Of a DNA stretch of 64,000 nucleotides, positions 3,001 to 52,665 are shown one piece after another; the stretch's first letter is position 1, and every line of letters starts with the position of its first letter. A program made the position numbers and the translations under genes. The notes under the pieces are model-generated. The model searched no databases. It had not been told where the DNA came from and saw only the letters and a program-made list of their open reading frames with translations. This DNA is from Bolinopsis microptera (taxonomy: Eukaryota; Ctenophora; Tentaculata; Lobata; Bolinopsidae): the NCBI RefSeq assembly GCF_026151205.1, contig NC_087082.1, forward strand, positions 14,231,365 through 14,295,364. Direction: 5' to 3'.

Positions 3001-4430
3001 GCTGCTGAACCATTTCCAAGCTGTCCCTGTTATTCCCAACTCATTTCTGAGGATGTTCAGTAGTTTGCAGTGGTCAACTGTATCAAAAGCTGCGCTGAGA
3101 TCTAGGAGAAGAACAACAGTTGCCTTGCTTTCTGTAGATGCAATGAGCAGATCGTTAACAACTCTCACAAGCAGAGTCTCGGTGCTGTGTTTTGATTTGT
3201 ATCCAGACTGCTGTGGGATGTTCAGGTTGTTGTTTTCTAGATGTTCATTTAGACGCCTGAGCACTACTCTTTCTATCAACTTGCCTACAAAACTAAGGTT
3301 AGATATTGGTCTGTAATTCTTGAGATTATCACTATCTAATCCCTGGCCCTTGATCAGGGGTGTGATATGAGCTAGTTTAGCGCCATCAATACTGCCAGAA
3401 GATAATGAAGCATTTACTATGTCAACTAAGACGGGTAGTAGATGCACGGCTGCCATTCTGCTTATTTGGTTCACAGGTTTTTCCTAGACTTTTTGTTCGA
3501 ACTTTAGCTTTCTGTACAAGATTTTTTGTTATCTTAGAATTAATTCCGCATTTATATTATTCCCACTCTCGACTCCTTGCTGCTAGTCCGGTTAATTTAG
3601 TACCTCTAGGTAACTTCTCATTTAATCATGAGGACTTATTAAAGAACATCTCACCCTCTAAGATTTTCACCGCTTTGTTCATTTTATAGATTTATTCTTT
3701 TTCTATTTTTACTACACTTACTAACACGTGCATATTACGAAGGAGTAGATAAGATGCCTCCGCAGGCATTTTAGAACGTTTTATATTTTATCACTTCATG
3801 CACGGCTGCCATTCTGCTTATTTGGTTCACAGGTTTTTCCTAGACTTTTTGTTCGAACTTTAGCTTTCTGTACAAGATTTTTTGTTATCTTAGAATTAAT
3901 TCCGCATTTATATTATTCCCACTCTCGACTCCTTGCTGCTAGTCCGGTTAATTTAGTACCTCTAGGTAACTTCTCATTTAATCATGAGGACTTATTAAAG
4001 AACATCTCACCCTCTAAGAAAACTTCGTTTGAAGATATTTTGTATTATTATCTATGTCATAAATTTTCCTTGTGTTTGAATTCTGTCACTTTTTAACTGT
4101 TTCTAGTATTTGTTATTTTCGGCCGATTTCTGCACTTTTTCACTGGGTCATCTTCATATTTTCTGGGATGGAGACGACGCATATCAGCATTTAAGGAAGA
4201 GTTACTTCATTAGACTCTTCTGGTCAAGGACAACATGACACCTAAAACTTTGAACATAACACGAGGAAACATGGACAAAACTGAACAAGAACCACATTCG
4301 AAGACTGAAACATCTGAATGACTCTGCAACCCAGGAATCCACTACTCAGTTATCATCGCTAAATGATCGGTTTGGTATCGACGTTACATACTTTATTATT
4401 TTTAAAAAAAAAGAAAATGAGGCTGATTTT

Positions 4431-4482
<52 letters not shown>

Positions 4483-9883: not shown

Positions 9884-11764
9884 TTAAGATTTATAAACTA
9901 AAAGGGAAACAATCTGACAATTCCGCAATTGAAAATCAACAATAACTTTATCCCCACTCTGTACCCTCAAATCGTCAACTAACGTGAAACAGTCCACCTT
10001 ATTGAAGTAATCAGAGTTACCAAATTCTAACAAAGAGTCACCAAAATAGTAACCCAGGGAGAATACAGCATTGGTAACCAGGCCGCGTTGTGTAATTGGT
10101 AGGGTAGAAGTAAAGTTATCATCACACTGCTGTAATGATGGTAGTTGTGTGGGAGTTGATAAAGTTGTGTAGTCATATTCCCACAGGTGTATTGGATCGA
10201 ACATGTCATCTCCACTGAGTTGACCCTGACATTGTCTCACTAGTTCACTGTAACCGGACATGTTGAACCCGTCTATAGTATCAGGAGATAACATCCTGTT
10301 AGCCAGCTGACAAGACTCTACTAACGTTATAGATAACACTACTTTACGAGGTACCAGACTACAATGTGAGCTGAGAGACTGTTCTAGTAGTTCCCTCCTG
10401 TAGTAATACGACACACAAGTTAAAGAGAAGGGGTGGTAACAACTATCCACTACTATGGTTCCTTCCTTTACTTTTAGTTCACTTGTTGAGAAGGGGTGGT
10501 AACAACTATCCACTACTATGGTTCCTTCCTTTACTTTTAGTTCACTTGTTGAGAAGGGGTGGTAACAACTATCCACTACTATGGTTCCTTCCTTTACTTT
10601 TAGTTCACTTGTTGTATCTGATACTCGAATAGTTTTAACTTTGCAGGAAAGGTTTTTACTGAGTAGTGCAGGAAGTGTGCTAGGTGGCCCAATATACACA
10701 ACACTTTTATCATCAGTCTTCAGCAATTCACATACACTACCACAGTAGGCTGCATTTAGGCGGCAACAGTTCATGTAACCTAGGTAACGGTAGCTCAACA
10801 TCTCTCCCGGATTGTCCTTTTTAGAGCAAACACAGTTGTTAAAGTTACCTGGTCCAGAGTGATCGATTTGAACCTCTAAATCAGTGATATTAACTTGTAG
10901 ACTTATATCACCTTTATTATAACACATGCAGTAAACAAGGGGCATCCAATGGTCTCTGAACTCCTGAAACTCCAGAAGAGGTTTAGGAGCTGTTGATATA
11001 ACGTTATCCTCATCAATATCACTCCTCCACCAGACCACTATACCGTTACAAAGTTCCTTATTTGTGATGCTGATATTCCTGGCACCTGTCCAACATTCCA
11101 CAGATGCTAGGTTAAATTCCCACTGCCACAATTCCACTGGAGCACCTGACTTGAGGTCTGATATCTTGTCAACGTGGACCTCCCAGGGTACGTCAAAAGA
11201 AATATTAGTTCTCTGTTGAGATTCCTTACTCGATGGTAACGAGCAGTAACTGTCAAGACTGGCTGAGAACACTGGCTGAGCAAACAATGTTGCTCTGGAT
11301 GGGATGAAGATACAGTTTCCAGATGCTAGTTGAGAGAGAGCGTGTTTGTAAGTGAGCAAACAACCCTCTCCTATAAGCTCACTGTCATAAACCTCGCTAA
11401 CAATGAGGTTAAAACTGTTTCTGTAACCGCTATTAAACTTATCTAAATCACATGACGACATAATCTCAACAACAATTTTGCAGGTTTTCTTATACATGTT
11501 TTCATTGTCCTTTATAACACCTTTCGCTATGTTAGCCATGGTCTTATTGCTCTCACAGGCCACAATAAAATCAGCACCAGCTTCAGCAGCGTATAAAGCC
11601 AGTAAACCAGTCCCTGTCCCGATATCCAACATACACACAGCTTCACCCCTACTGTGGATCTTCTTTATAGCAGTTTGGATTGCTGATCTGTACGCCTTGT
11701 GACGGTGAGTATCATTAAGCATTCCTGCATGTCCATTAGTGAGGATCTCGTCAGGATCTACCAT
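9884..11764 (-). CDS. PRMT7: Protein arginine methyltransferase 7, single exon
   Basis: 626 aa in one frame, near the usual 690. Methyltransferase core: SAM-binding LDIGTGTG at residues 46-53, an acidic post-I residue in ACESN, and the double-E loop SEVYDSELIGEG at 123-134. RDHW near 270-273 matches the conserved DHW of the family, preceded by VVWWRSDIDED. A degenerate second methyltransferase half and HLWEYDY near the C terminus follow, which is the tandem architecture of PRMT7 rather than PRMT1 or 5. PRMT7 makes omega-monomethylarginine on histones and splicing proteins. Residues about 384-446 are a 21-aa segment present three times, in the second domain. A polypyrimidine-TTTAG acceptor ends one base before ATG, so either a 5' exon or a trans-spliced leader may precede it. 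It lies 425 bp downstream of TRAPPC9 and 165 bp upstream of SUPT20H, all on the same strand. Confidence 0.88.
   Translation of the reverse strand: MVDPDEILTNGHAGMLNDTHRHKAYRSAIQTAIKKIHSRGEAVCMLDIGTGTGLLALYAAEAGADFIVACESNKTMANIAKGVIKDNENMYKKTCKIVVEIMSSCDLDKFNSGYRNSFNLIVSEVYDSELIGEGCLLTYKHALSQLASGNCIFIPSRATLFAQPVFSASLDSYCSLPSSKESQQRTNISFDVPWEVHVDKISDLKSGAPVELWQWEFNLASVECWTGARNISITNKELCNGIVVWWRSDIDEDNVISTAPKPLLEFQEFRDHWMPLVYCMCYNKGDISLQVNITDLEVQIDHSGPGNFNNCVCSKKDNPGEMLSYRYLGYMNCCRLNAAYCGSVCELLKTDDKSVVYIGPPSTLPALLSKNLSCKVKTIRVSDTTSELKVKEGTIVVDSCYHPFSTSELKVKEGTIVVDSCYHPFSTSELKVKEGTIVVDSCYHPFSLTCVSYYYRRELLEQSLSSHCSLVPRKVVLSITLVESCQLANRMLSPDTIDGFNMSGYSELVRQCQGQLSGDDMFDPIHLWEYDYTTLSTPTQLPSLQQCDDNFTSTLPITQRGLVTNAVFSLGYYFGDSLLEFGNSDYFNKVDCFTLVDDLRVQSGDKVIVDFQLRNCQIVSLLVYKS
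10425..10613. repeat. 63-bp in-frame triplication inside PRMT7
   Basis: Three exact head-to-tail 63-bp units at 10425-10487, 10488-10550 and 10551-10613. Each encodes the 21-residue segment beginning STSELKVKEG and ending YHPF. Identity at every base, including third positions, points to a very recent event or an assembly artefact. Confidence 0.93.
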
Positions 11765-12188
11765 TCTAAACAGGGGTAAGGAGCTGTCATTGAGTACTCA
11801 TCATGTTAAAATGTTTCTTTAAACTTGTAGAATCTTATATATTAATTTGACAGTATTTTTATTTTTCAATATTATAAGTTTAGTCCGTTTATTTGGAAGA
11901 TTGAATCTTATTTTGATGGTAGGAAGAAGGGAACAAAACAAAGAATAATATTAGCAAAATCATGCTGGTCAAAAAAGGCATCATTTAAACAGAATTTACA
12001 TCGACAATAAGAGACAAAATTTGAATAACATCCATATCGTAATTCAATGCTGTTAGATATTCTATCAATCATTTTACTATCATTAAATCATATCAAATCT
12101 GTCATGACTGCGCACCTGTAAAAATTAAAAACACAAAAACATTAATCATATAATATATTATCATAAAGATTTAAGAGTCCTTTAAACG
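11765..12188 (-). other. TRAPPC9-PRMT7 intergenic spacer
   Basis: No coding frame seen. Two acceptor-like sites are present on the minus strand: TTTTTAATTTTTACAG ending at about 12111, just after the TRAPPC9 stop, and CTCCTTACCCCTGTTTAG next to the PRMT7 ATG. No convincing AATAAA was found on the minus strand. The spacer is short for two independent genes in such AT-rich DNA. Confidence 0.4.
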
Positions 12189-15100
12189 TTAGTTGAAAAT
12201 TTCAAACTGTAATGATGGTCGCATCTTCCAGTTCTCCATGTACTTTGGTGGTGGCAGACCATCATTCAGGTACTGCATGATTATCTTTCTTGGAATGATT
12301 GGGCTCTCCTGATGTTCCTCATCAATGACCACAGAGTCCACCTCAGGAGTAAGCTGCTGGTTGCTGTACTGGATAGTACAAGAAGCAGTGCCACTTGGAG
12401 GGGGCAGTTGGCAGGCACTTACTTCCACAGAGAACTTACCACATGTCATGGGCATCAGGGTAAACTCATGTGACAGAGTAGAGTGAGGTTCAAGGCTCTC
12501 AACACTGTGGTCTCTAGTTCCAATAAAGGGAATATCACACATCTTCTTGAAGGCAGATGATCCTTCGTAAAATGCCCTTACAAACAACAGCAGTGAGCCC
12601 AGAGACTCATCTGAGACATTTGTCACCATGATGGATAGCGTTATAGGTGTTCCAATGGACACTTTGTGTGTTTTTTCTTCTCCAGGTCTGTCTAGCACGT
12701 TGCATGAAATGATCAGTTTCTCTTTTAAGGCATTTGTAAGGTCAGTATACTGAGTGACAGACTCGATAACATTTACTCTTCCTTGCCTATCACCAACTTT
12801 CCATGGGATATATTTAAAATCAGGATCCAGTAAGTCAGAGAACTTAACCCTATGATGACATGTTGGGGAGTTATCACAGCGAGTGACCCTGTCTAGAGCA
12901 ACATCCTTAGCAAACAGTTCACCAGAATCTACAAAATGTGAAATTCCAGCAACGTTTAGTTCCATTCTTTGAGGACACATTGATGCTAAAGAGAGATGCA
13001 TTTGGCATTTGCTGCTATCAGAGAGGTGCTGTGAAATGGAGTAACCAGCTAGCTGATACAGAAGATTTATTTGAGCTGTAAAAGTTGAATCAAGCTGTCG
13101 GAAATACTCTTTCTCCTTATCATAATATCTGAAGCTCAGAGAAAAGTTTTCCTCTACAAACACATTTTCAATTTTGGTCTGTCTAGCACGTCTAACAATA
13201 GGTGCATCGTCTCCTTCATCAAACTCTGACGAGTTCTCATAGATGGTACCACGTTGGGTTCTCTCGGGTCTACTGTCAAAACACTCAGCTCTCCTTTCAT
13301 GGCCTATTTTTGTGTTGATATTAATTTCAATATCAGCAAATGTACCCGGAAGAAGTGGAACTGGAACCTCACCATACTGAAAGACAAGACCGGTCCTGGA
13401 ACAGTTGTCGATAACATCAATATGCTGGATGGGAAAACTGCTGATGTTAGCTATCCTGCAGGACAGCTTTCTCTCTTCCCCCTCGTACAGAGTTAGTGTA
13501 GCTGGAATATCAGACTTCAAAACTAGTAGAGGCATTGGTTTTGATACTGATATAGTTTCTGCACATGTCACTTTAAAGTGAGAGGGAACACCACATAGTT
13601 GAAGTTTAATTCCAACCAGTTTTAGTGTACCTGGTTGACGAGGTTTGATTGTCAGAACTATATCAACTGTCTGCTTAGGGTATATTGTAATGGTGCCAGG
13701 GTAGCATTCCGCAATACCTCCCTCCACTATGCATCTTATGTCAAACAGTTGCAGAGAGTGCAGAAGTGGATTTTCCAGTTTCAGCAGAACTTCTCCAAAT
13801 TCGTCACAAACCCAATTAACTAAGTTTTCTTCCTCTTTGCTCTTGCTAGCATTAGGATTGAATATGAATATACTGTTGGTTTGTTTGTTTAATCGAGGTT
13901 CCAAAGATTTCCCTAAAGACTTGATCACAATCTTCTTGCAAACAGGTATGTTTGGTGCTTCAATCATGTCTTGACCAAGCCTGGTGTTATTCTTGAAGAT
14001 AAGGTTTAGAATACGGAGTTGATCGTCATGGTCCAGATGTGAGTAAAAGTTTTGCAACAAGCACATTCCATATTTAACAACACTGTCACTGTTGGCTAAT
14101 TTGTCACTGGTTGAGATCAGATCATTGAGCACAAGCTTCTGTAGCTGAGGCCAACCATGCGCACTTTGATTACCAGGAACAACACCGTACCTCTCTATGA
14201 CATTGCATAGTAAAGATGATGAAATTGTGTATGCTCTTGAAAGCATTTTTTCATGAATAGATTCAAGTGCAGCTCTTCGCAAGAAATAACTGTATTTTCT
14301 GTGCATCCCCATTTGCTCATACAAAAGAGCAATAGTACAGAAAAATTGCAGCTTCTCAACTGGGGTTAGATCGTCATAACAGTAAAATATTTCTGAATTA
14401 AGTATGACACATGCCTCCCTTTTACATTCTAAATCTATCATCAATCTGACAAACTTCAAAGTGCTTTCAAGCATTATCAAGGATGCTTCCCTTATCTTTT
14501 CCATGTGATTTATACCGGTCCTGAACAGCCCTTTAAGATTTTCTGTACTCTTCATTTCCGGTTCAGATGAGGCACTGTTCAAAGATTCCTGAGAAGAATG
14601 CAGTTTGCCACCTCCCATAGCAGTGGTAGACTCAGCCTCGTCTAATTGTAGCATCCTTGCAATCGCACAACACTGGCCTTCATATGCAGCACCAGTCCAC
14701 AAGCTGTCCCCGATTGATAGCAAGTTTCTTGCAGCTTCTTCATAGCTCTCATTTGCTTTTTCAGGTTTTCCTATGATCAGAAACATATCTCCCAGATGTT
14801 TCTTGTGTCTTGCTTGTATCCTTTTGCGGCCCATTTTACCCTCATCTAGTCCAGATTTGCTTCTTTCGTAAGGACTGTATAACAGCTGAGGGTTATACTT
14901 TTCACCTCCCATTTCAATGGTATTTCTGACAACAACAGAATATAAAGCCTGGGTAAATTCACCAATGAGAGCAGTCAATTCCTCACAGTGAACAGAACTT
15001 ACGTCACCACTATACTGTATCACCATTATGTCTGGCCTGATGCAATCTGGTGGTAGCATAAGAGATTCTTCGCTGAAAATGATACACCTTGAATCAATAA

Positions 15101-15431
15101 CAGTGCTGTCCATTCGCCGTTTTATCTTCTCGTACTGGGGTAAAATTCCAGCCAGGTTTGAGGAAGCATCAGCATGTGTGATGCAGAGTAAACCAATAGG
15201 TCTACGATAATATTGTACATCACTCCAATCAGAAAGAAGTGGCTGAGATTGCAGCACAAACTTGGCACTCAGCTGATTACGATTGGGCAAGGGTACTTTG
15301 CTCAGTTCAGAAGGTATTGTGCTCAAAAAGTTCTCATCAACAAGACCAACAGGTAAAAGGACAATATGAAGCCTAGAGCTATTATCACATTTTGCGTTGA
15401 AATCAATCCGAGATGAAAGAGATTGATTCAT
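12189..15431 (-). CDS. TRAPPC9: TRAPP II complex subunit 9 (NIBP/Trs120), single exon
   Basis: 1080 aa without an intron, close to the roughly 1150 aa of animal TRAPPC9. The N-terminal Trs120 region opens with LHIVLLPVGLVDENF and RRPIGLLCITHADAS. A YERSKSGLDEGKMGRKRIQARHKK-type segment precedes the TPR-like helices (KHLGDMFLIIGKPEKANESY). The C-terminal half is a series of beta-sandwich repeats (for example GTLKLVGIKLQLCG, and PHSTLSHEFTLMP near the end). The protein belongs to TRAPPII, a Rab-GTPase exchange complex at the Golgi and recycling endosomes, and is linked to NF-kB signalling in mammals. The ATG directly follows a pyrimidine-rich TTTTATCTAG, an acceptor-like context. Human TRAPPC9 has over 20 exons, so intron absence is notable. 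Confidence 0.88.
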   Translation of the reverse strand: MNQSLSSRIDFNAKCDNSSRLHIVLLPVGLVDENFLSTIPSELSKVPLPNRNQLSAKFVLQSQPLLSDWSDVQYYRRPIGLLCITHADASSNLAGILPQYEKIKRRMDSTVIDSRCIIFSEESLMLPPDCIRPDIMVIQYSGDVSSVHCEELTALIGEFTQALYSVVVRNTIEMGGEKYNPQLLYSPYERSKSGLDEGKMGRKRIQARHKKHLGDMFLIIGKPEKANESYEEAARNLLSIGDSLWTGAAYEGQCCAIARMLQLDEAESTTAMGGGKLHSSQESLNSASSEPEMKSTENLKGLFRTGINHMEKIREASLIMLESTLKFVRLMIDLECKREACVILNSEIFYCYDDLTPVEKLQFFCTIALLYEQMGMHRKYSYFLRRAALESIHEKMLSRAYTISSSLLCNVIERYGVVPGNQSAHGWPQLQKLVLNDLISTSDKLANSDSVVKYGMCLLQNFYSHLDHDDQLRILNLIFKNNTRLGQDMIEAPNIPVCKKIVIKSLGKSLEPRLNKQTNSIFIFNPNASKSKEEENLVNWVCDEFGEVLLKLENPLLHSLQLFDIRCIVEGGIAECYPGTITIYPKQTVDIVLTIKPRQPGTLKLVGIKLQLCGVPSHFKVTCAETISVSKPMPLLVLKSDIPATLTLYEGEERKLSCRIANISSFPIQHIDVIDNCSRTGLVFQYGEVPVPLLPGTFADIEININTKIGHERRAECFDSRPERTQRGTIYENSSEFDEGDDAPIVRRARQTKIENVFVEENFSLSFRYYDKEKEYFRQLDSTFTAQINLLYQLAGYSISQHLSDSSKCQMHLSLASMCPQRMELNVAGISHFVDSGELFAKDVALDRVTRCDNSPTCHHRVKFSDLLDPDFKYIPWKVGDRQGRVNVIESVTQYTDLTNALKEKLIISCNVLDRPGEEKTHKVSIGTPITLSIMVTNVSDESLGSLLLFVRAFYEGSSAFKKMCDIPFIGTRDHSVESLEPHSTLSHEFTLMPMTCGKFSVEVSACQLPPPSGTASCTIQYSNQQLTPEVDSVVIDEEHQESPIIPRKIIMQYLNDGLPPPKYMENWKMRPSLQFEIFN

Positions 15432-27314: not shown

Positions 27315-27418
27315 TTCTGGTAAGCATTTCTTAATACGGTAGATACGTCCACAAGCACTGCTTAGTTTTTTGTTAAGAGATTGTATGTGTGGTTTACAAC
27401 TTAATTTGTCATCAATAA

Positions 27419-28732
27419 TTACTCCAAGGAATTTATTGTAGTTTGACTAACACGCTTGATTACCTTGTTATTCATGGATAGGTAATAGCTATCTATATCG
27501 GCGTCTAATTCATTATTGTTACGTTTATTTGGAGAGAAGTACATGTAACAGCACTTTTTTACATTAATGTGTAGTAGGTTTACTATCATGTACTTATTAA
27601 CAGCCTGCAGTATTTTGTTAGCCATGTCATATACCTTATCCTTTGAGTCGGCTGCAACAAATATATTAGTGTCGTCAGCAAATAGAACAAATTTACCTAG
27701 ACTTGTTATATTACAAATATCATTTATGTACAGTATGAACAGTAGAGGTCCGAGCACACTCCCTTGGGGGACTCCAAATTCTACAGGTAATTCATCAGAT
27801 TTTACATCAAGAACGTCCACAAATTGTTTTCTATTAGATAAATAACTAGAGATAAGATTTAGAGCATTTCCTCGGATACCATAGTTATTTAATTTTGTTA
27901 TTAGCTTATAGTGGTCTAGGGTATCAAAGGCTTTAGAAAGATCTACGAAGACACCTAGTACGTGCTGCTTTTTGCTAGTTAACGATTCAATATGTTCTAC
28001 AGAATAATTAAGTGCATGACTAGTGGAATGCCCTTTTCTGAAACCAAATTGGTTTTCATGAATTATTCCCTTAGAGGTTAAGAAACTATACAACCTAGCA
28101 TATATCAGTTTTTCTAGTATTTTCCCAAAAACAGGTAGTGTCGATACGGGTCTATAATTTCCTAAAAGCTGTTCATCTTCCTTTTTGTAAATCGGACTAA
28201 TTCTCCCTGTCTTAAGTTCTTCAGGAAATAGGCCTTCTTGCATGCATCTATTGAAATACTTCACTAAATACGGTGCAATTACTTGGCACGACTTCTTAAT
28301 TACATGAATAGGTATGTCGCTTGATTTACCATTTTTTAATTCGTTTATGGTCTCTATCATTTCAGCACTGTCACAGTCTTTAAGATAAATACTGGATGTG
28401 ATGGATTTCGGGAGGTAGTCAGTAAATGTTGGTAAATCATTTATTCTTAAATAGTCATGAGAATACACTTCATTAAGATTAGATGCAATGGAAGCAAAGT
28501 ACTTGTTGAACTCATTTGCAATTACACGTCGATTGGTTACACGCTCATTATCAATAATAAAGTTAGGTTTCGTCTGACGTCTCTTCTTACCACGTAATTC
28601 GTTAATTATCTGCCAAGTTTTCTTGCTGTCACCAATACATTCAGCAATCTTTCCCCCGTGATACTTATGTTTTGCACAATTAATGAGGTGGTTTAATAAC
28701 TTCCGGTGTGCTTTAAATTCCTGATGACGCAT
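27419..28732 (-). pseudogene. LINE E linker and reverse transcriptase
   Basis: 437-codon frame: GDSKKTWQIINELRG linker, NYRPVSTLPVFGKILEKLI, NQFGFRKGHSTSHALNYSV, VFVDLSKAFDTLDH, GVPQGSVLGPLLFI and KFVLFADDTNIFV with the catalytic DD. It ends early at 27419 by frameshift. The family sequence continues in another frame (FLGVIIDDKLSCKPHIQ) until the Helitron at 27314. Upstream the frame continues to the LTR insertion at 28923. Confidence 0.88.
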
Positions 28733-28923
28733 TACCTTATTTGTACAGTGATAACAAAGACAGTCTGATTGGTTGGGTGTTGAGGTGTTAAGACATGCCT
28801 TTTTTCCTGCCTTTATCTTAAGTTCATAAAGCTCATGTTTTCTATTTATAGAGTTAATTAGGCCTGACGTAATCCACGGATTATTCCTAGCGGTTCGTTT
28901 AGAACACTTAGGTTGCTCTAGTT

Positions 28924-30237
28924 TGTTAGAATCTTAATTCTATTTGTAGCTTGTTTTTGTACTTCATATTACTAACCCTGTATCTCACTTTAGCAAAGGT
29001 TTAGTTCCAGTGATTGTATATACAGTGTTGGGGTAAAGGGACTCCAGAAGGCAGACAAGGCTCGACTCCAGACTCTAGTTGAAGTAACAGAAGAGAGAGG
29101 AGTGTCTAGTGTTTAGTTGACTCCAGACTCTAGCGAAGCAGAAGGGAGAGGAGTGACGTTGTCGACTCCAGACTCTAGCGTAGCAGAAGGGAGAGGAGTG
29201 ACGTTGTTTTAGTGATCCCACAGATTCCAGTTGACAGATACTATCTGTGTTCTGTGACGTGGAAAGAGTGGTAAGTAGTTTATAGTTATAGTTTAGTAGT
29301 TTAGTCTAGGAGTTCCCGCTTCCTCTTTCACTTTCATTTATAGTTTCACGTGGATTACCTTTCACTTCACTCACGGTAGTTTTCCCCCAGGGTTTTGTTT
29401 TATAGTTATCAGTTCCAGTTTCATCTAATTTGTATTTATAATAATTGAGTATTATTTGTTATTTAATTAACCCAATAACAGGGTTTCAACAGTGGTAGCA
29501 GGAAGTGGTTATCAGTTATCAGTTCCAGTTTAGTTGAAGTCCTCATCATTCAGAAGTCCCTCATATAGTAAGAAGAACATCATCATCAGAGTAGTAGTTT
29601 TAATTTAATAGTTGTTTAATCTAATAGTAAAAAGACATTATTTAGTTTAGTATTGAATTGTGTATTAGTTTGAGCAGTGTGAGTAACTGAGTCACACCAA
29701 TCACATTTCAATCACTCATTCACTATTTGAGGGTGAGTACATAGAGTAACAAGGTTACATTTGAAACACCATTTATTTGTATAACCTCTTTATTCATCTA
29801 ATTTGTATTTATAATAATTGAGTATTATTTGTTATTTAATTAACCCAAGAACAGGGTTTCAACAGTGGTAGCAGGAAGTGGTTATCAGTTATCAGTTCCA
29901 GTTTAGTTGAAGTCCTCATCATTCAGAAGTCCCTCATATAGTAAGAAGAACATCATCATCAGAGTAGTAGTTTTAATTTAATAGTTGTTTAATCTAATAG
30001 TAAAAAGACATTATTTAGTTTAGTATTGAATTGTGTATTAGTTTGAGCAGTGTGAGTAACTGAGTCACACCAATCACATTTCAATCACTCATTCACTATT
30101 TGAGGGTGAGTACATAGAGTAACAAGGTTACATTTGAAACACCATTTATTTGTATAACCTCTTTATTCATCTAATTTGTATTTATAATAATTGAGTATTA
30201 TTTGTTATTTAATTAACCCAAGAACAGGGTTTCAACA
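28924..30237 (+). mobile_element. LTR retrotransposon remnant with tandem leader/LTR-end units
   Basis: TAGTT is duplicated at 28919-28923 and 30238-30242. A 568-bp LTR starts TGTTAGAATC and ends GGGTTTCAACA (28924-29491), with TGTT/AACA termini. One base further, TGGTAGCAG looks like a tRNA primer-binding site. Then a 373-bp unit (302-bp leader plus the last 71 bp of the LTR) occurs twice, 29492-29864 and 29865-30237. There is no gag or pol. Strand is inferred from the primer-binding site. It is comparable to a TRIM element, but the short 3' LTR is odd. Confidence 0.8.
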
Positions 30238-41800: not shown

Positions 41801-41856
41801 AGTAAAGTAAAGTAAAGTAAAGTAAAAATTATGACATAACATCATCACTAATGTCT
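41801..41856 (-). mobile_element. LINE family B, minimal tail fragment
   Basis: GTAAA repeats plus about 30 bp of the family B 3' terminus (TTATGACATAACATCATCAC). A severely 5'-truncated insertion abutting the previous copy and R1 copy d. Confidence 0.65.
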
Positions 41857-43150
41857 AGTGAAACAAATTTTTTAGTGAAACAAATTTAAAATTTTATCCT
41901 TTATTTTACAATCATAATATAATAATATTTATAAGCCTCCGTTTTGAAAGTTTTAAATTTTAATACATTCACAATTCTATTTAAAATTCAATTTTATGTA
42001 CAAGTCAATAACTGGCCGCCAAAGCCGCGCATTCTTGAAAACAGGATTAACTTGATTATAGTTATACGACTATGTAAATTTAAAACTATCCGTGGTTTTT
42101 TCTTTTAAATAAATAAATGATAATTTTACCTAAGTCCAAAGCCAGCTTTGAAAAATTTACTATTAAATCATAATATATCGTCAACTTTAAATATTTACAA
42201 TGCAACAATTCATTAATTTGTAAACACGCGTACTCCAGCCCCTAAACGCATAAATTGTTATGCGGCGCGGCTCAAGCCGCGCACGCACGTATTATTTTAT
42301 ACTGTTTGCTTTCTAATAAATATCATGCCAATGTGTACGTCTAAATTGTAAACGTTCATGTTTTGTGTAAAGTGAATCCAATTGGGACTAGTGACAAGGA
42401 TAAGGACCCAAGTGCCTGTACGGCTTTTTCGGGCCCCTGTGGACCACTACTCTTGAAATCACTCTACAACATTGAACATCTATATCTACTACGTCATTTG
42501 GCAATTGTTGTCATTAATCTAACTTTCTAATTAATTGCCGAGGGGGAAGAGTAAACGCTTCACATTAAAATTCAATATACAAAATTCAAAACCATCAATA
42601 CGGTATTAAATATTATGGACAAGTCTATAGATCTATTTCGTAGTCATATATTCACATGATTTGCTTTATATTATCTTAATACTGTAATGAAGTACAGTAG
42701 GATTTGTGTTTCGAGAAAGAAAGGTTGCGGTCAAATTATTAACAAAAGTAAACAAAAGTCCATCAGGGACTCCGTGGAGTCGAAAAAGGTACACGGCTGC
42801 TGTCTGGTGCTGCTAGGCATTTATTGATCAAGATGTTTTATTGTATTGATTTATAATGATTCTATTGTTCGTGACTAATCAAGTTCTAAGTGGAGGTATA
42901 ATAAAGTGCTGCTCAAGATACTTCGTCATCTCATGTCCAGTATAATGATTAAGATAGTATACAATGCAGTTTTAGTAGTTGACCCAAACAGTTAAGTCCG
43001 TCATAACTCACAATCGTTAAGTCGTCGGTCAATTGTCAAAGTCGTCGTGTGTTTATTCGTTGAGATAGCAGCAAGATAAGATGTTACGCGCGCGCGCGTT
43101 TAATCCCGTCGACGTGAGATGTGACAATGAAAACGCCATAGAATTATTAT
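41857..43150 (+). mobile_element. R1 repeat, copy d (most diverged)
   Basis: Starts with a doubled TAGTGAAACAAATTTTT unit, has GC-rich cores near 42260-42290 and 43085-43100, and a long-range stem: CCTGTACGGCTTTTTCGG (42414-42431) against GTCGAAAAAGGTACACGG (42780-42797). Primary sequence similarity to copies a-c is low. Membership rests on shared layout. Confidence 0.45.
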
Positions 43151-43424
43151 TTTCGCGCGTTACGTAGAGTTTACCAGTGTGTAATACTAGTTAACACTGG
43201 GTGTACACTGAGTGTAAGTGTAAGTTTCATATACAAGCCGTTGAATATTTCCAATTTTGAGTGTATCGTGAGCATGTTTTACAGTGCGATTGCTCGGTAC
43301 TAGTGTGTTTGTGTATATATATATATATCATTTGTGCAGTATGGTGTAAGTAATGTTTTTGGTTGGAGTGCAGTGGTTATATGTATGAGAAAAGATATAT
43401 GGTCATTTTAGTAACTCAAATAAA

Positions 43425-46400
43425 TCAGAACTTGAGCTCATTTGTGGCAAAATTAAGCTCACACCAATCAAGTGTATCATGCTTGAATTGCAATTCTCGT
43501 AAGGCAATTTTCAATATATTCTTAAACCCGTTTGTTGGAGTATTAAAACTTATCTTACTTGATGTTTGTCGACAGCTGTTCCACATGTAGGATGATTGGT
43601 AGATGAATTGTGAGGATGGTTGTGATGTAATGAAATAATCCTCTCGTCGTGGTGACCTGTTAAATGATGAGTACAGTGATAATGGTTCCTCTAACTTATT
43701 AATTTTGAATAGTTCTAAGAGACAAGTGTACTTGTACAGATTGTGGACCGTCAACAACCTGTGGGTTTTAAACAAGGGCTTGGAGTGTTCTTTTTGGTAA
43801 AAGTCCACCCCCAGTCTTTGCTTATCAACAGGTCGTGTTCGGGCACACGTTTTAAACTTCTCTAGGTAAGCTTCTCTATCCCCAAACAGAATTCTTATAC
43901 ACTTTTTCTGTGTTTTAAAGATAGGTTCAAGTCGGTTATTGCTAATACCACCCCACACAGATATTCCAAATCCTAATGTGATTCAAATAGAGTATGATAT
44001 AAATCCTTATAATACTGCTTTGGGACAATGTGTCGTATTCTGCACAGCTTTCCTACTTCGCATTTAAGTTTTGAGTTAAGTGACTGCGTATGTGATTTCC
44101 AGTTAAGTTGGTCGTCAATAATAACGCCTAGAAATTTAGCTTCTTGAACTCTTTTAATAACTACATTATTTAAAGTTAGTATGTTCTCGTCATTTTCTAC
44201 TTCCTCTTTGGCCCGTGAGGGTTTAAAATGAATAAAACAACATTTCTTAATGTTAATATGTAATAAGTTTAGTTTCATATACTTGTACACAAATGATAGA
44301 ACTTCATTTCCTTTTTCGTATAGTCTTTTGACACATGTGTCTTCTATAAATATGTTAGTGTCGTCGGCAAATAGTATAAACTTTCCTATAATTGATGAGT
44401 TACGGATGTCATTAATATAAATAATAAAAAGTAAGGGACCAAGACAGCTCCCCTGCGGCACTCCATAGACTACTGGAAGTTTCTCGGATTCTTCACCTAA
44501 TACCGAGACATACTGGTATCTGTTCGACAGGTAACTTGCTATAAGGTTATTTGCATTTCCACGGATTCCATAATTTTCTAACTTATGCAGTAACTTTTCA
44601 TGTGATATTGTATCAAAGGCTTTACTAAGATCAATAAATATTCCAAGAACGTGTTGTTTTTTCTTGAGGCAAGATTCTACGTGGTTCACTGAGTAATTTA
44701 GGGCATAACTGGTCGAGTGATTTTTACCGAATCCGTACTGGTTTTCATATAAGGAGTTCTGTGAATGAAAGAAGCTGTATAATCTATTGAATATAATCTT
44801 TTCAAATATTTTACCAAACACAGCTAGCGTTGATACAGGTCTATAGTTTTCAAGGAGTTCCTGGTTATCTTTCTTGTAAATGGGACTAATCCTTCCAACT
44901 TTAAGGTCATCTGGAAATATGCCATCTTTCATACATTCGTTTATACAGTACAGTGAGTAAAGGAGTAACTATTTTAGAGGACTGCTTAATTACATGAATC
45001 GGTATGTCACTTGCCTTGCCATTTTTAAGTTCAGATATGATTTTTGCTAACCTCGTCTGTTGTGCAGTCATGCATGTAAATGCTGGAAGTGTTTGAAAGC
45101 GGTAGATAATCATAGAAACTAGGTATACTGTTTATGTTAATTTGTCCAAGATCATTGTAAGCGGTATTTAGGTCAGAGGCTAATGATACAAAATATTTAT
45201 TGAATTCGTTTGCTATGATCCTTCTATTTGTTATCTTAACGTTGTCTATGGTGAACAGCGGCTTTATTTCACGCCGCCGTTTACCTCTTATACGATTTAT
45301 TAGTTCCCAGGTCTTTTTACTATCACCGCTATTTTCAGCAAATTTACCAGAGAAGTATTCTGTTTTCACAGTTTGACGTGTTTTCTTTAGGACTTTTCTG
45401 TATTCTTTGTAGATAAGGTAGCGACTACGTTTTAGTGAGCATTCAGGGCACTGGCAAATGCCGCCCTTGTTATCAGTTTCCCCGAGTTTACATTTTCTAT
45501 TTCTTATCTCAACCCAATTTTCGTACAGTTTATGCCGATTATTAATTGAGCAAATGAGACCGGGAGTTATCCAAGGGTTAACCTGAACAGTTCTCTTAGA
45601 GGTTTTCGGGGTCTCTAGTTTAAACGATTTTTCGACGCAGTTTTTGTAAGTGTCATGGAATTCAGTAAAGTTATGGATTGTTTTAGTTTTAAGCTCATCT
45701 TCAAGATCCACTAGGAAGCCGTTAACATTTGATTGACAGAAGTCGTAATATTGTTTAAAAGAAGTTTTTTCAGAGTTGACTTCAACATTCCAGTTAAATG
45801 TGTTAAAAATAGGTGAGTTATGAGTTATTCGTTCTTTTAGGGTGCCTGAAGTAATCACATTCTCAATATCGTTAGTAATAATGTTATCTATGCAGGATGC
45901 TTTACAGCCTGGTTTTTCGTGGGTAACAATAGATATTAACGGACAAAATCCTTTACTGAATAATATTTCTTCATATTTTTGAACATTTTTGTTATCTTTA
46001 TCATGAAGATCGATATTAAAGTCTCCAGCTAGATAACTAAACTTCGGCATGTGATCAAGAAGGTTAGAAAGTTCAACTAGAGCTTGGGAAATACAGCCAC
46101 TTGGTGGACGATACAAAACACCTACATTAACAGGTTGATCTTCGTTACTTAATGATAAGACAAGTATTTCTAGATGTTCTGTGACTTGTGATATATTCTC
46201 AATTACAGTAGCATTTAATTTATCGTCAACATAAAGGGCTACTCCAGTGCCCTTTTGTTTGTTAGGTGCTGTGTCCTGATAGTAACTATTATAACCGTCG
46301 AGCTGAAATAGATTGCTTAATTCTTTTCCAGTGTTGGTTTCAGCTAGGGCTATTACGGAGAATTTTGTTTTGTACCTACAGGTTTCAATGGCAAGGTTGT

Positions 46401-46570
46401 CAAAATTTGATTTATTTCCATCAATATTTTGAAAGAGAATAGATGATTGTTTCTTTACTTGGTTGCAGAGAATATTTGTAAGGTCAGATGCAGTGTATGA
46501 GTTACAATCATTTAAAGTATTTGAGATTTGGTTGTGTATTCGTCTAGGTTGTTGTCGTCGTCGTCATTGT
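43425..46570 (-). pseudogene. LINE F ORF2, endonuclease-reverse transcriptase (frameshifted)
   Basis: The frame is open, without an ATG, above 46116: SSILFQNIDGNKSNFDNLA, FSVIALAETNTGKE, KGTGVALYVDDKL, then VGVLYRPPSG, YLAGDFNIDLHD and CIDNIITND, all AP-endonuclease blocks. The RT (43973-44932) has NYRPVSTLAVFGKIFEKII, GIFIDLSKAFDTISHEKL, GVPQGSCLGPLLF and KFILFADDTNIFI. The C-terminal domain is 43425-43958. Frame changes occur near 45000-45100 and near 43965. Confidence 0.85.
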
Positions 46571-46774
46571 CAGTGAGTAGTTTAAATGGGTTGTATTTAA
46601 CCTTGTCTAATGGATACAACGAGTACAGTAAAACTCATTAGATTGGCTATTTGGATTTGATTTGCGATAGCATTTATGGTGCATTATGCAGTCACAGTGA
46701 AAACATTCAACTATTGTTTGGCCGATGGACTATGTTCTTAGAACAGACAGGACATACCTCCTTAATGAGGGGAG

Positions 46775-48917
46775 TCATGGTTGGTAACCATCCACGTGAC
46801 CCTGACTAGCAGCAGCAGGAACAACAGGACCAGTTTCTCTTCCAGCAGTCGCATCCCTGTAGGATCTATCGTCTACCCTTGTGGACCTCCTCTTCCTTTT
46901 GTCGATACCACCGTTAATCCTGAGAAGAACAGTGTTACGAATAAATTGACCTAACTTGCTAGTCCCCTCCAGTTGAGGTGAAGGAAGTCCGGTTTTTGGT
47001 ATTTGTTGAGGTCGCGAGAGAGAGAGAGCGGTCAAGGAGACCATCCCTATCACAGAACTCATCAAATCCATCCACATAACTGACACCAAAATTGGACGGG
47101 AGCAGCCTACATCGATCAAACTGTTAAAGTATATAAGCTTTCTATTTAAATCAGCACGTTTAGAAGGAATTGTTGGACAAACATATACATGCACACCCGG
47201 ATTAATAGATTGAATCTGGGCAATTTTTGAAACTAGATGGTTGTAGATTATATCAATATCGTTTTGGCTTTTTACATCTGTTTGTTTCAGGTCATTAACC
47301 CACACAATATAACACAGTTTCTATAGCCACAGGACACATAAGGATCAATGCTATCGACAGTTGGGGCAAAGAATCGTTTTCCAGGAAGCCATTTGCCGAA
47401 TGACTTGGCAGGATCAGAACCGAATTTCAGTCCGCCGGTGTTCGAGTCCCCAATGATACATGTAGCGTTTCTATTCAGGGAACTGACTGATCTCAATGTT
47501 ATACTGTAGCGCAGCCCAGTTATCTCGCCTGCATCGATACGATGGTGGAACAGTGCTTGGCTACGACGAGTCATTACATATAATGATCCTGGGCCACATA
47601 GTTGCTTGTGCTCATCAATACCTGTACTAGCATCAGAGAAAGAAACATGACATGCAGTACCAAGAGAGACTGTAAAGATACTTGATTCCGGGTGGATAGA
47701 AGGCTCGTTATCAGAGTGTCTAGGCAAGGTGCTGCTTGTGCCGTCAAACCGATTCACCAAACAGCTGTTAACCTGAGGTTGGTCACCTGAACAAAACTCA
47801 CTGTTGATTCTGTCGATGAGTTTTCTCAAGGGTGGTGGTATTGCCTTTGGTGTCTTGGACGACTTAGATCCAGGATAATCGTACCGTTCCCCATATGATA
47901 GGCAGGAGCGTTCGTTTTCAATTTTGAAGTCTGTGCTGCTCAAATCAAATAGGTCAACTAGTTCTTCCGCAGTCTTCTGATCTATAAAATCGTTTTTGAA
48001 CAGTTCCACAGGTTTCTGCTCATGATGAGGTGGCTGCAAAAGGACAGGTGGTGCTGGAGGACGAGGATGCTGTGCAGGAGGTAGGTTGGGAGGAATGCAA
48101 GGACCAGGGTTATGCAATGGCTGTATAGAACTTATAGACTGTTTTAGTTCAGCAATGCCTGCAGCTACAGTGGGCTCATTTGCAGAAAGTGCGGTGAGTT
48201 GTTCTGAGATGCTCTCAGAAACTGCTCAGATGAGTCTGTAGATGGGGATGATTCAGGGGAAGGTCTAGATGCTAAAAGTTTAAGGTCCCTCTGTAGTTCA
48301 GCTATGTTGGTATTTATTGATTCTAATGATTTGTCATGGAGCTTTATTTCATTATTTAGGCCATTAAGGGAGTTCTCTTTAAGAAGCAGGTGTTGAAGGT
48401 GAACGTCGAACTGGGAGAGAGTGTCAAGGTTCCTAGAGAACTGTTCGAAGTCAAATTTTTCAAGAGCTGAGCCTGCTGAGCTTGCTGATGCCACAAGTGC
48501 ACTGACAGTTTCAAGATTCTTAACAGCTGTAGATGCTTCAAAATCTGAGTTGGCCTGTTGCAAAGCCCTTGTGTTCCTGCAGCTGTAACAAAATTCGTCT
48601 CTCTGTTTCTTCAGTGTTGATACTGGTGCCACGAAGCAGTATGGGCACAGCCATTCTACCATGGAGTTGATAGCTGACCTCGTTATACCCTTCATAGACA
48701 AGCAGTCCACATGCCACTCTTGATGACACTTAGAACAGTCAATGAGGTAAACTTTACCGTTAAAAGAGCGTTGACATGGACATTTCTTCTTGTCCCTATG
48801 TTTCCTGTTTACCTGATCTTCATTGTCCACTGTAGATTCGGCTAAAATGTTGCGAGACAAGCTATTAGATGTTTTAGGAGTACCTGAATTCTTCCTAGTA
48901 TTTGACGCCATTTTCAA
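46775..48917 (-). pseudogene. LINE F ORF1: PHD finger - coiled coil - AlkB dioxygenase - SGNH esterase
   Basis: Three main frames belong to one protein. 48165-48917 gives an N-terminal PHD finger (CPCQRSF, LIDCSKCHQEWHVDC, WLCPYC) and a coiled coil (FDFEQFSRNLDTLSQFD). A frameshift near 48200 leads through AELKQSISSIQPL into 47287-48117: a Pro-rich linker, then an AlkB-family fold. It shows NRFDGTSSTLPRHSDNEP with iron ligands His134 and Asp136 (numbered in that frame), PGSLYVMTRRSQALFHH with a third His, and RYSITLR, the R-x5-R 2-oxoglutarate clamp. Directly after comes GDSNTG (about residue 223), the SGNH nucleophile block, continuing in other frames to the catalytic KPDFLHLNW Asp/His. PHD and esterase domains are known in CR1 ORF1; the dioxygenase is unexpected. 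Activity is unknown. Confidence 0.85.
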
Positions 48918-49118
48918 ATCAAATGTAAGTAATACTGACCAAATAGATCCGACTTGGGGTCGGCTCCCGTTAAGTGTTTTGTTTTGGAGGAGATTAGGAC
49001 TTCAGAGTTGATGACCCTAGTAAAGTGTAGATGACCATAATAGAGTGTAGAATGTAGATGACCCTTAGCTTAGTACGCCCCTTCGGGGGAGTTGTAACAT
49101 ACCATTCCTGAACACTCA

Positions 49119-50098
49119 AATTATTTGTTATATAGTAGTGTTGAAAGTATCATCACACTACATGGAAAAATAACTATTTCTCCATCAAATTTAAAGGTAA
49201 TAATTTATCAAATATTAATCATGAATAAAACCAACATTACAAAATTTAATTTATTCATACTTCCCAGTAGAGTAAAGATTTATAAAACGTTTCTTTGCTA
49301 CATAAGGATGGAACCACAGATAATCATTGTGTTTTTCCTTATTACTGATATAACTGGTACCTTCAATTCTTGTTAAAACTTCTTTCGAAACATTCCAAAA
49401 ATGAAAGTCATTTACAATACATTTAGAAATCATATTCTTTTTAAAACTTTCCAATCCAATTTTAAAACTCAAAACTGTCAAGCAGTTCTTCACCTCCGAA
49501 GGGAGTTTGTTCCAATAAGGAACAACCCGCTCTGGAAGAAAAGAACACTGAAGATTCTTGACCTTTGTGAAGGGAGTTTGTTCCAGTAAGGAATGACTCG
49601 CTCCGGAAGAAAAGAAGACTGGAGATTCTTAACTTTAGTTACACTCTTACTACACATTGGTTGAAACTAGATTAAGACCAGATCTGCTCATTCTGAACAA
49701 ACCCGATCCATATTCAGTCAAACCACTAGTTACTTTAAAAGCTTCAATAAGGTCCCCACGTATTTGCCGCTCTGCCAGCGTTGTCAAATTGAGGATATCC
49801 AGTCTACGGCTGTATGGAAGAGTACCCACCTCATCAATAAGACAGGTAAACCGCCTCTGGACGCTCTCCAGCTCCAAAACAGTCCCCCAACTTCCATGAG
49901 CCGCAACTGGATTCCACAATTGGACACAATACTCAAGATGAGGTCTTATCAAAGCTTTATAAATAGCTATCATTACAACCTTTTCTCTAATAACTAAGTT
50001 CCTTACAATCCAGCAGATCATACGATTTGCTTTAGAAATACATGCTTTTATCTGTTCATTCCAAAGCAAGGAGCTATGGGTAACAGCATTGATAAACT
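49119..50098 (-). mobile_element. LINE family B, 5'-truncated copy next to WBP11
   Basis: 3' end at about 49119 with one TTATATAGTAGTG unit. C-terminal frames 49251-49493 (DFHFWNVSKEVL, YLWFHPYVAKKRFINL) and 49650-50069 (LIRPHLEYCVQLWNP, LPYSRRLDILNLTTL, a CR1-type thumb region). Two nearly duplicate segments around 49500 and 49575 both contain AAGGGAGTTTGTTCCA. It ends about 20 bp before the WBP11 acceptor. Confidence 0.8.
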
Positions 50099-50100
50099 TT

Positions 50101-50121
50101 ATTAAACTTTTTCCTTTTTAG
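50101..50121 (+). promoter_or_regulatory. Strong 3' splice site 22 nt upstream of the WBP11 start codon
   Basis: CTTTTTCCTTTTTAG ends at 50121, followed by CCTGGACTATTAGCAAGGCAAA and the ATG at 50144. All DNA immediately upstream is LINE-derived, so the partner donor is either a distant 5' UTR exon or a trans-spliced leader. Confidence 0.6.
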
Positions 50122-50143
50122 CCTGGACTATTAGCAAGGCAAA

Positions 50144-52665
50144 ATGGGCACTAAAAGGCCAACAAAAACCACTAAAAGTGGGCGCTACATGAACCCCACT
50201 GACCAAGCGAGAAAAGAGGCTAGAAGAAAAGAATTGAAAAAGAACAAAAAGCAGCGTATGGCAGTGAGACAGGCTGTCTTGAAAGGAAAAGATCCATTGA
50301 TGCTGGTTTGTGTTACTTAACATGTTGATATAACTTTAGTACTTCTCAACCTTGTTATATATATATATAAAAGCACAAGCTTCAGAATTTTGAAATTATT
50401 GTTAACGATATTGACTGTATTTCTCAGGTAAAAGAGCTAGAACAAGTGGAACAAATGGAGCTCGAAACTCTAGCAGAAGCTTTGCCTACAAGCAAAGCAC
50501 TTCGTGAGAAGAAACTGAAAATGAAGGAAACAATTGACAGAGTGATTAAATGCTATGAAAAGGAAAGCGACAAAGATATGGTTAGTTTTTCAACTTTTTC
50601 ATTGAAATTTAATTACAAGTTTCATGAATTTGATTTTAAATGGACAGTTTTGTTAAAACCGTTAAAATGCTAACAACAGGAACTGAGTTTGATGTTTAAT
50701 GTGATGAATACAGTGATTGACATGATGATCCAGTGTTACTGTTATGAAACATAAACTCATCCATAGGTGGAAAAGATCAAGAGATCGATGGTAGAATATG
50801 AATCAAGACGAAGGAAGTACGTCGCATATTATCAGAGCAAAAAAGACATCCAGATGGATAACGTGTTAGAACTGCAAAACATTCCACTGCCAGACAATAT
50901 ACCCCTTCCCAAGGAGCTGCCTCCTAAAATGAATTCAGATGATAGTCATGAGTCTGTTATCAGTATTGTTAGTTTACCATCTAATGTTGCTCCCCCTCCA
51001 CCGCCATCAGGTTCTTTATTTACCTACTTGAGATATCTTATTTGTGTTATATTCGTTATTTAACTCTAGAATACTGCTTCAGACGTTTAATTAATTGTCT
51101 AGTTTCGATACCAACGTATCTGTGAACTGTTTCTTTCACTCTGTATCATTTATCAGTAATGTGATTCGTGCTTATTTTAAATCCAAACATTAAATTTAAA
51201 CTATTTGCTGAACACTATGTATCTCAAAATTTCTTGTAATCTGGTTTGTAATTCTATTAATTTCATGCTAGAACAATCATCATTAATCTCAATATAATTG
51301 GCAATAACTGGTTGTTGACTTTCAGACGATCCTCCCAAATGCTGTATAAAGACAGAAGCGTTATATAACTACAGTAACAAGTCTGACGGACCCAATCTAA
51401 CTACCACTGTGAGTTCAGCTAGATGTTGTTATTTCAGTTTAAATTATAAAAACAAGCCTTGTTTCACGTATACACTGTTGAATGTGTAATCTAATATTAT
51501 ATGAACACCTCAGTATGTTACTAAATGTCGATACTTATTTCAAATTCTCTCAGAATTCTAAGAGTGACACATTAAAAGCACCTGGTCCGCCTCCAGGGCC
51601 CCCTCCTGGCCCGCCCCCTGGGCCCCCTCCTTCAATGCAGGCCGGATTCGCCGGTGCTCCCAGAGGTTTACAGTATACAGTTATTATTATTATATAATTG
51701 TGATATCTTATACTTAATTTATATACTACAATTACTGTGCGGTATCGTAATATCACATACATCATGTACTGTTATTCTATAACATCAGGCCACGGTTATT
51801 AAATGCACGGTAATAATGTAAAAGTCCTTATCTTTTTAATACTTTTCAAAAAAGTTACAACGAATTTACCATTTAACATGTAACATGTATTAACCTGTAA
51901 TCTTGTGTGTAACCAGTGATGTTGCAGGAATGGGAGGACTACCCCAGATGCGGCCTGGTGCACTTCCCCCAGGAGTTGTCTTGTACGCTCCCGGAGGTCC
52001 TGACGGGGTCTCACACCAGATCCGACCAATGTTTCACTCTCATGGTCTGTATTTTCTATCTTTTATTAATTCATTTATAACCGCAATTCTAATTCCTTAG
52101 TCATATTATTTATATTATTTAAATCTCATTTATTAATACTTGAAACTATAAATAAAGATACTAAAATGTTTAACCTTGGTTATGTGACAGTGTCAGGTAA
52201 CCCGTACCTCAATAAACCTCAAGACAAGTACGCATCAGCCACCATCTCCAAGAAGGCCACCACGATAGTCACGAACTCTAAAACACCGGGCAGCTCAGCC
52301 CCAACCGCACCTGTCCAAAACAAACAAGAGAGGGTATGTTCAATTCTTTAAAACAACAGTCTTACATTTATCAGATCCAAGTTCCAACTGCTTAATTTGT
52401 TACCTTTTTCTAATCCAAAAGAGCTTTTTTGAGTTAGCAATTTTTTGTAGGAGGATGACACAAGTTTATAAACAGTTATGCTAAAGGTTTACATTTCCAG
52501 GTAACCAGATTTGTGCCAGTGTCAGTGAAGTTACGGAAGCGTTTGCCGGAAGAACGTCCCAAACAACTACCTGTCCAACAAACACCTACCACAGAGAAAG
52601 CTAAGCCTGAAGAGGGTGTGGACGCGTACAGCGCCTTTATGGACGAGATGGAGGGGCTTATGTGA
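50144..52665 (+). CDS. WBP11: WW domain-binding protein 11 (spliceosome-associated)
   Basis: Eight coding exons with matching phases: 50144-50305, 50428-50580, 50767-51010, 51326-51408, 51554-51665, 51928-52044, 52197-52333 and 52501-52665, giving 390 aa. The start [13 protein letters not shown] and the next block [20 protein letters not shown] are hallmark WBP11. Then a charged helix ([15 protein letters not shown]), [11 protein letters not shown], a PPGP repeat (exon 5) and [11 protein letters not shown], with the family-typical end [18 protein letters not shown]11 (Npw38BP/SIPP1) binds WW domains of PQBP1 through the PPGP/PGR tracts and activates pre-mRNA splicing in the nucleus. It is much shorter than the human protein (641 aa); the acidic Ser/Asp-rich middle is absent. 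A triple TGATCACG palindrome immediately follows the stop. Confidence 0.92.

Follow-up and report, generated by a model that had tools for sequence, protein, structure and literature searches.

An AlkB domain in a ctenophore LINE

The window analyzed here is a 64,000-nucleotide stretch of contig NC_087082.1 (positions 14,231,365 to 14,295,364, assembly GCF_026151205.1) of Bolinopsis microptera, a ctenophore of the order Lobata. It contains a long interspersed nuclear element (LINE) whose first open reading frame (ORF1) encodes an AlkB-type 2-oxoglutarate/Fe(II) dioxygenase domain. A coiled coil precedes this domain and an SGNH esterase follows it, and ORF1 is followed by an endonuclease-reverse transcriptase frame, ORF2 (Table 1). 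The element belongs to a large LINE lineage that was recently active and that, from its architecture, would be CR1/L2/Jockey-like.

Copy L037, on another large contig, matches the window element at 99.28% over 7195 bp (blastn, 49036-41856) plus a 37-base 5' piece (49148-49112), with 29 mismatches and 15 indels between them. None of these differences falls in the AlkB domain, where the frame is intact; the ORF1 frames on both sides of it are broken, as is ORF2, by indels that may be real or assembly errors. Two Pfam matches fall short of their cut-offs: the ORF1 PHD finger (20 bits against 24), whose Cys/His columns are retained at 97-100% (88-92 alignment rows), and, narrowly, the Exo_endo_phos match of ORF2 (23.1 bits against 24.5). 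An Rfam scan of positions 42500-50500 at gathering scores returned no matches.

Table 1. Layout of the LINE copy, in window coordinates
Feature	Position	Strand	Basis and remarks
Whole LINE copy	41856..49148	-	5' end near 49148, 3' end near 41856; blastn of L037 and ends of other copies
5' untranslated region (UTR)	48912..49148	-	Precedes ORF1 ATG at 48911, placed by aligning the start of P0046
ORF1, including stop	46775..48911	-	PHD, coiled coil, AlkB, SGNH esterase; frame changes; tblastn of P0046/P0048 across successive frames
PHD-type zinc finger	48636..48782	-	First to last Cys; Pfam PHD E 0.00068
Helical coiled-coil region (approximate)	48031..48600	-	Helices within residues 137-281 of P0048 (AlphaFold); frame change near 48210
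AlkB 2OG/Fe(II) dioxygenase domain	47476..48030	-	Frame intact; Pfam, fold match, motif
HSDNE	47704..47718	-	Iron ligands H 47716-47718 and D 47710-47712; glutamate at +4
Third iron ligand H	47542..47544	-	Sequence motif
RYSITLR (R-x5-R)	47491..47511	-	Sequence motif
SGNH/GDSL esterase domain	46778..47475	-	Frame changes in window copy; GDSNT at 47437-47451
ATGA, ORF2 start overlapping ORF1 stop	46775..46778	-	Sequence; residue 1 of P0131 maps to 46778
ORF2 (broken here)	43426..46778	-	Relative P0131 (1117 aa), 92% over query, 92-100% over four main segments
ORF2 N-terminal zinc-finger segment	46610..46726	-	100% identity to P0131 residues 18-56; finger by eye from C/H pattern
ORF2 endonuclease and linker	45043..46530	-	Exo_endo_phos E 7.3e-05; 96% to P0131
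ORF2 reverse transcriptase	43976..44941	-	RVT_1 E 1e-36; 95% to P0131
3' UTR	41856..43425	-	Tail in 8 copies examined: short AAATTTGTTTC(A/G)CT, doubled in 6/8

Identity of the AlkB and esterase domains

A first-pass annotation, made from the sequence alone, had read an AlkB pattern into this ORF1 and had named a hidden Markov model (HMM) search and structure prediction as checks. The pattern is real: HSDNE, the third-ligand histidine, and RYSITLR complete the HxD, H, and RxxxxxR motif, and both checks bear it out. PF13532 scores 61.9 bits in the window against a curated cut-off of 31.2 and is found at E <=0.01 in 37 of 38 relatives, and the predicted structure of the domain matches the AlkB double-stranded beta-helix fold. 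In the whole AlphaFold model of the full-length relative P0048 (738 aa; mean pLDDT, the predicted local distance difference test score, 76), the order is zinc finger, helices within 137-281, AlkB, and SGNH, with the latter two mostly above 90. A chance motif was considered and rejected because Pfam, fold, and conservation agree on AlkB. An NCBIfam scan of three proteins returned only TIGR00568 (AlkB), in two of them and far under its cut-off.

Among the best 60 Protein Data Bank (PDB) rows of a profile search, the closest solved relatives are ALKBH2 (E 3.9e-10) and ALKBH3 (E 1.1e-9), followed lower down by ALKBH6 (E 8.9e-4) and then E. coli AlkB (E 1.4e-3). The acid of HxDxE in the LINE domain aligns with the same acid in ALKBH2. 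ALKBH2 and ALKBH3 are demethylases of 1-methyladenosine (m1A) and 3-methylcytidine (m3C), and the acid and the profile ranking together point to an enzyme of this type. ALKBH5 and FTO do match the domain by fold. An eraser of N6-methyladenosine (m6A) as in an orchid element (PMC9289625), an enzyme that would take host-deposited m6A off element mRNA and so allow escape from decay or sequestration by m6A readers, is an unlikely reading: neither ALKBH5 nor FTO appears among those 60 rows, which ALKBH2/3 top, and human L1 benefits from m6A and is harmed by ALKBH5 (PMC7873242), which counts against carrying the m6A model over unchanged.

For the esterase, PF13472 was found in 28 of 38 relatives, and the best solved matches are PatB and a DUF459 protein (E 0.0025-0.0075, best 60 PDB rows). 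The ZfL2-1 esterase (PMC3905857) is absent from those 60 rows, with which kinship would still be compatible.

Relatives and conservation

Protein searches brought up 17 relatives at first and 284 later, and the top 120 were listed; the named hosts among listed ORF1 and ORF2 relatives are Bolinopsis microptera and Mnemiopsis leidyi. Conservation was counted after aligning 130 proteins with two rows from the window, over the rows with a letter at each column, in a set whose recruitment by similarity favors conserved proteins. The residues for which the first-pass annotation had called for a test of selection proved nearly invariant: the iron ligands H and D are each present in 125/125 rows and the third-ligand H in 128/128, and the RYSITLR arginines are found in 127/130 (first) and 128/129 (second). 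The glutamate of HxDxE is kept in 125/125. When relatives with both domains covered >70% are considered, all five AlkB catalytic residues are retained in 110 of 111, as are all four SGNH catalytic residues (S, N, D, H) in the same set; random five-column AlkB sets give a mean of 3.6% full retention, and 0 of 20000 reached the observed value.

Outside these proteins, two scans of a viral contig collection gave no confirmed relatives. A general genome contig collection gave none at the first scan and five bacterial loci at 28-32% identity at the second, and three phage records matched at E 2e-3 to 3e-3. Some relatives depart from the common plan. P0011, P0012, and P0123 form a divergent AlkB-SGNH group, the longest of which, P0123, differs at its N-terminus and has no PHD motif. 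In P0130, a Mnemiopsis leidyi gene model, AlkB-SGNH is followed by a PHD finger and then by what we take, from its pattern, to be an RNA recognition motif (RRM)-like segment of another LINE ORF1; P0130 may be a nested insertion or a fused gene model.

Copies in the genome and linkage to ORF2

A search of the Bolinopsis microptera assembly (264,652,675 bases, 232 contigs) with the AlkB fragment gave at least 127 scored matches, a lower bound (1108 candidates at first look). A stop interrupts the matched part in 8 of the 127 and is absent from 119, and 64 of them lie in open frames of at least 680 aa. Besides the window copy, 15 matches are 99% identical; others lie at 75, 55, 53, 50, 46, and 43%.

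Twenty of the 127 copies were fetched, mainly for long frames and subfamily spread, so that the sample is biased toward intact copies. The AlkB pattern is present in all 20 and a PHD-type motif in ORF1 of 18 (exceptions L045 and L055). An ORF2 of 1025-1133 codons lies directly downstream of ORF1 in 18 copies; in L036 it has 860 codons, and none was found downstream in L041. The two frames meet at ATGA in 14 of 20, with a larger overlap in L046-L049 and L051 and zero overlap in L054. This direct reading supersedes a test based on equal-size contigs holding relatives of both frames, in which four long contigs coincided, including a chromosome of Mnemiopsis (mean under the shift control 0.0025), along with four short ones (mean under the control 0.86, at most 5, with 4 reached in 1.75% of shifts). 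Of the short ones, one (3550) is too small to hold ORF1 and ORF2 next to each other.

Within the window subfamily, the match to L037 extends over 6.5-7.2 kb, at 99.0-99.7%, in eight of nine other copies, and over 2.6 kb in the ninth, L041. Among the eight copies whose ends were examined, a common 5' start is seen in six (not L039 or L043) and a common short tail in all, and their flanks differ. In five copies the two flanks have no 8-mer in common; in the other three they share one, which sits at the junctions in L044 alone and is there a plausible target-site duplication. Long terminal repeats (LTRs) were absent from a self-comparison of L037 (plus strand, E 1e-10), which gave the full-length row only.

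Selection

Two of 28 subfamily pairs are informative for the ratio of nonsynonymous to synonymous divergence (dN/dS), synonymous sites being saturated in the other 26. For the AlkB domain, L037/L046 give a ratio of 0.13 (dS 1.21, dN 0.16) and L053/L055 a ratio of 0.07 (dS 0.46, dN 0.03); the corresponding SGNH values are 0.11 and 0.08, and for L037/L046 the coiled coil stands at 0.18. In two young sets of 10 and 4 copies, pooled pairwise ratios of nonsynonymous to synonymous differences per site (pN/pS) are 0.30 and 0.26 for AlkB, 0.15 and 0.12 for PHD, 0.77 and 0.60 for the coiled coil, and 0.16 and 0.78 for SGNH, the last value coming from 4 synonymous differences and 11 others. Taken together, these values mean that the AlkB domain is constrained about as strongly as the esterase between subfamilies, and more strongly than the coiled coil within young sets.

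Purifying selection, the at least 127 matches, and linkage to a reverse transcriptase together exclude a one-off capture of host sequence, the outcome that the first-pass annotation had set against its own reading. They also bear on whether the domain could be a catalytically dead nucleic-acid-binding module or functionless captured host sequence. The breakage of ORF1 and ORF2 in the window copy would fit such a state, which is made highly improbable by the retention of the five catalytic residues in nearly all relatives, far above the random sets, by the two dN/dS ratios, and by the number of genomic matches.

Mosaic evolution of ORF1

Pairwise identities of AlkB and SGNH rise and fall together (Spearman 0.73), whereas those of PHD and AlkB are weakly related (0.24). 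Between L037 and L046, synonymous differences per site (pS) are 0.03 in the segment that contains the PHD finger, rise to 0.5-0.8 across AlkB and a large part of SGNH, drop to 0.03-0.05 in the tail of ORF1, and are 0.25 across ORF2. This sharp mosaic suggests an exchange of the AlkB-SGNH block between subfamilies, in agreement with the reticulate evolution that Metcalfe and Casane (PMC4120745) reported for ORF1.

Another kind of junction is seen in L055 (C10:10006043-10014268), where a 1003-aa open frame precedes an ORF2 of 1127 codons. By eye, a zinc finger and endonuclease from the ORF2 of a different LINE are here fused in frame with AlkB-SGNH, and L055 looks like a natural chimera.

A proposed role in reverse transcription

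The enzyme activity, substrate, and benefit that we infer for the domain concern the element's own RNA. We rate at about even the proposal that the AlkB domain, maintained by selection between coiled coil and SGNH, removes m1A and m3C from that RNA and thereby aids reverse transcription. By analogy with other LINEs, the ORF1 protein would coat element RNA in a ribonucleoprotein (RNP); the AlkB domain, with Fe(II), O2, and 2-oxoglutarate, would strip Watson-Crick-face methyls (m1A, m3C) that would otherwise halt the reverse transcriptase of the element in target-primed reverse transcription; and the esterase may anchor or release the RNP at membranes. Known LINE ORF1 proteins are mainly RNA-binding RNP components, which argues against action on DNA, whether as repair or demethylation of the target site or nascent cDNA or as PHD-guided removal of N6-methyldeoxyadenosine (6mA) from chromatin; such roles seem to us decidedly unlikely. 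LINE proteins also act mostly in cis on their own RNA, and a host-RNA target, for example, transcripts or small-RNA precursors of transposon defense, is accordingly improbable. Other cellular RNAs have been proposed as one option for an orchid element (PMC9289625).

Demethylation of the element's own RNA is favored because the HxDxE acid and profile ranking coincide with the interference of m1A and m3C with reverse transcriptases (PMC12140624). The same source reports that AlkB treatment removes both marks and that most 3' tRNA halves are then better recovered by the R2 reverse transcriptase in ordered two-template relay (OTTR), with merely a modest change for intact tRNAs. An esterase-bearing ORF1 protein binds lipids, and a role in RNP assembly at membranes has been proposed (PMC3905857).

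A wider picture is more tentative, and we place it on the doubtful side of even: a ctenophore LINE lineage may have diversified with an ORF1 that combines chromatin-reader finger, RNA demethylase, and lipid esterase, with the demethylase obligate for retrotransposition through clearance of methyls that block reverse transcription from template RNA, and with the AlkB-SGNH block also swapped between subfamilies by recombination.

Other features of the window

Two further LINEs lie on the minus strand. One (27318-29248) has a related reverse transcriptase (61% identity) and no upstream ORF1 seen, and is probably 5'-truncated. The other (1987-7768; RVT_1 E 9.3e-33) has an ORF1 with a PHD-type finger and, as judged by eye, CCHC-like knuckles; the AlkB ORF1 query gave no matches to it. 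Also on this strand are a TRAPPC9/Trs120-like protein in a single open frame of 1080 aa (12189-15431; PF08626 E 1.1e-39) and a methyltransferase-like open frame of 637 aa (9884-11797) in which the short stretch TSELKVKEGTIVVDSCYHPFS is repeated three times, possibly as a minisatellite or an assembly artifact.

Comparison with known systems

PHD and esterase ORF1s were already known, as were AlkB domains in RNA viruses and in LTR elements of plants. A LINE with AlkB was not found in a literature search of titles and abstract openings; Repbase and subscription journals lay outside that search, and an unremarked Repbase entry may exist.

ORF1 types III and IV of CR1/L2 LINEs bear a PHD finger or an esterase (Kapitonov and Jurka 2003, as cited). 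The ctenophore element shares with these an ORF1 placed before an endonuclease-reverse transcriptase ORF2, the PHD finger, the coiled coil, and the SGNH esterase; it differs in uniting PHD and esterase in one ORF1 and in carrying AlkB between coiled coil and esterase. In the 448 elements of Metcalfe and Casane (2014), esterase ORF1s occur in just two vertebrate groups, and Table 1 of that paper includes no AlkB (PMC4120745); LINE esterases are also known from cnidarians and sponges (PMC3905857).

The orchid Ty3/Gypsy elements with an AlkB (2-oxoglutarate-dependent dioxygenase, 2-ODD) are alike in that a retrotransposon gained and retained AlkB. These are plant LTR elements with a separate ALKBH5-like ORF (PMC9289625), whereas the ctenophore domain lies inside a LINE ORF1 without LTRs, is nearest to ALKBH2/3 by profile, and occurs across many subfamilies that have diverged. 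RNA viruses (PMC544882) and other viruses in BFVD are likewise parasites that carry AlkB domains; the best viral fold match there has E 1.2e-14 at 25% identity, followed by Picornavirales, grapevine leafroll virus, and pithovirus rows. Those of RNA viruses sit within polyproteins or replicases, without reverse transcription, and human ALKBH2 and ALKBH3 are host enzymes outside mobile elements.

RNA methylation as a control on retrotransposons is debated, with opposite signs for human L1 (PMC7873242) and plants (PMC9289625). A selected AlkB domain inside a LINE makes the question directly testable, by assay of one protein's substrate and by disabling its catalytic residues. If the proposal is true, the element brings its own epitranscriptomic countermeasure, a natural parallel to the laboratory practice of adding AlkB so that a non-LTR reverse transcriptase can read methylated RNA.
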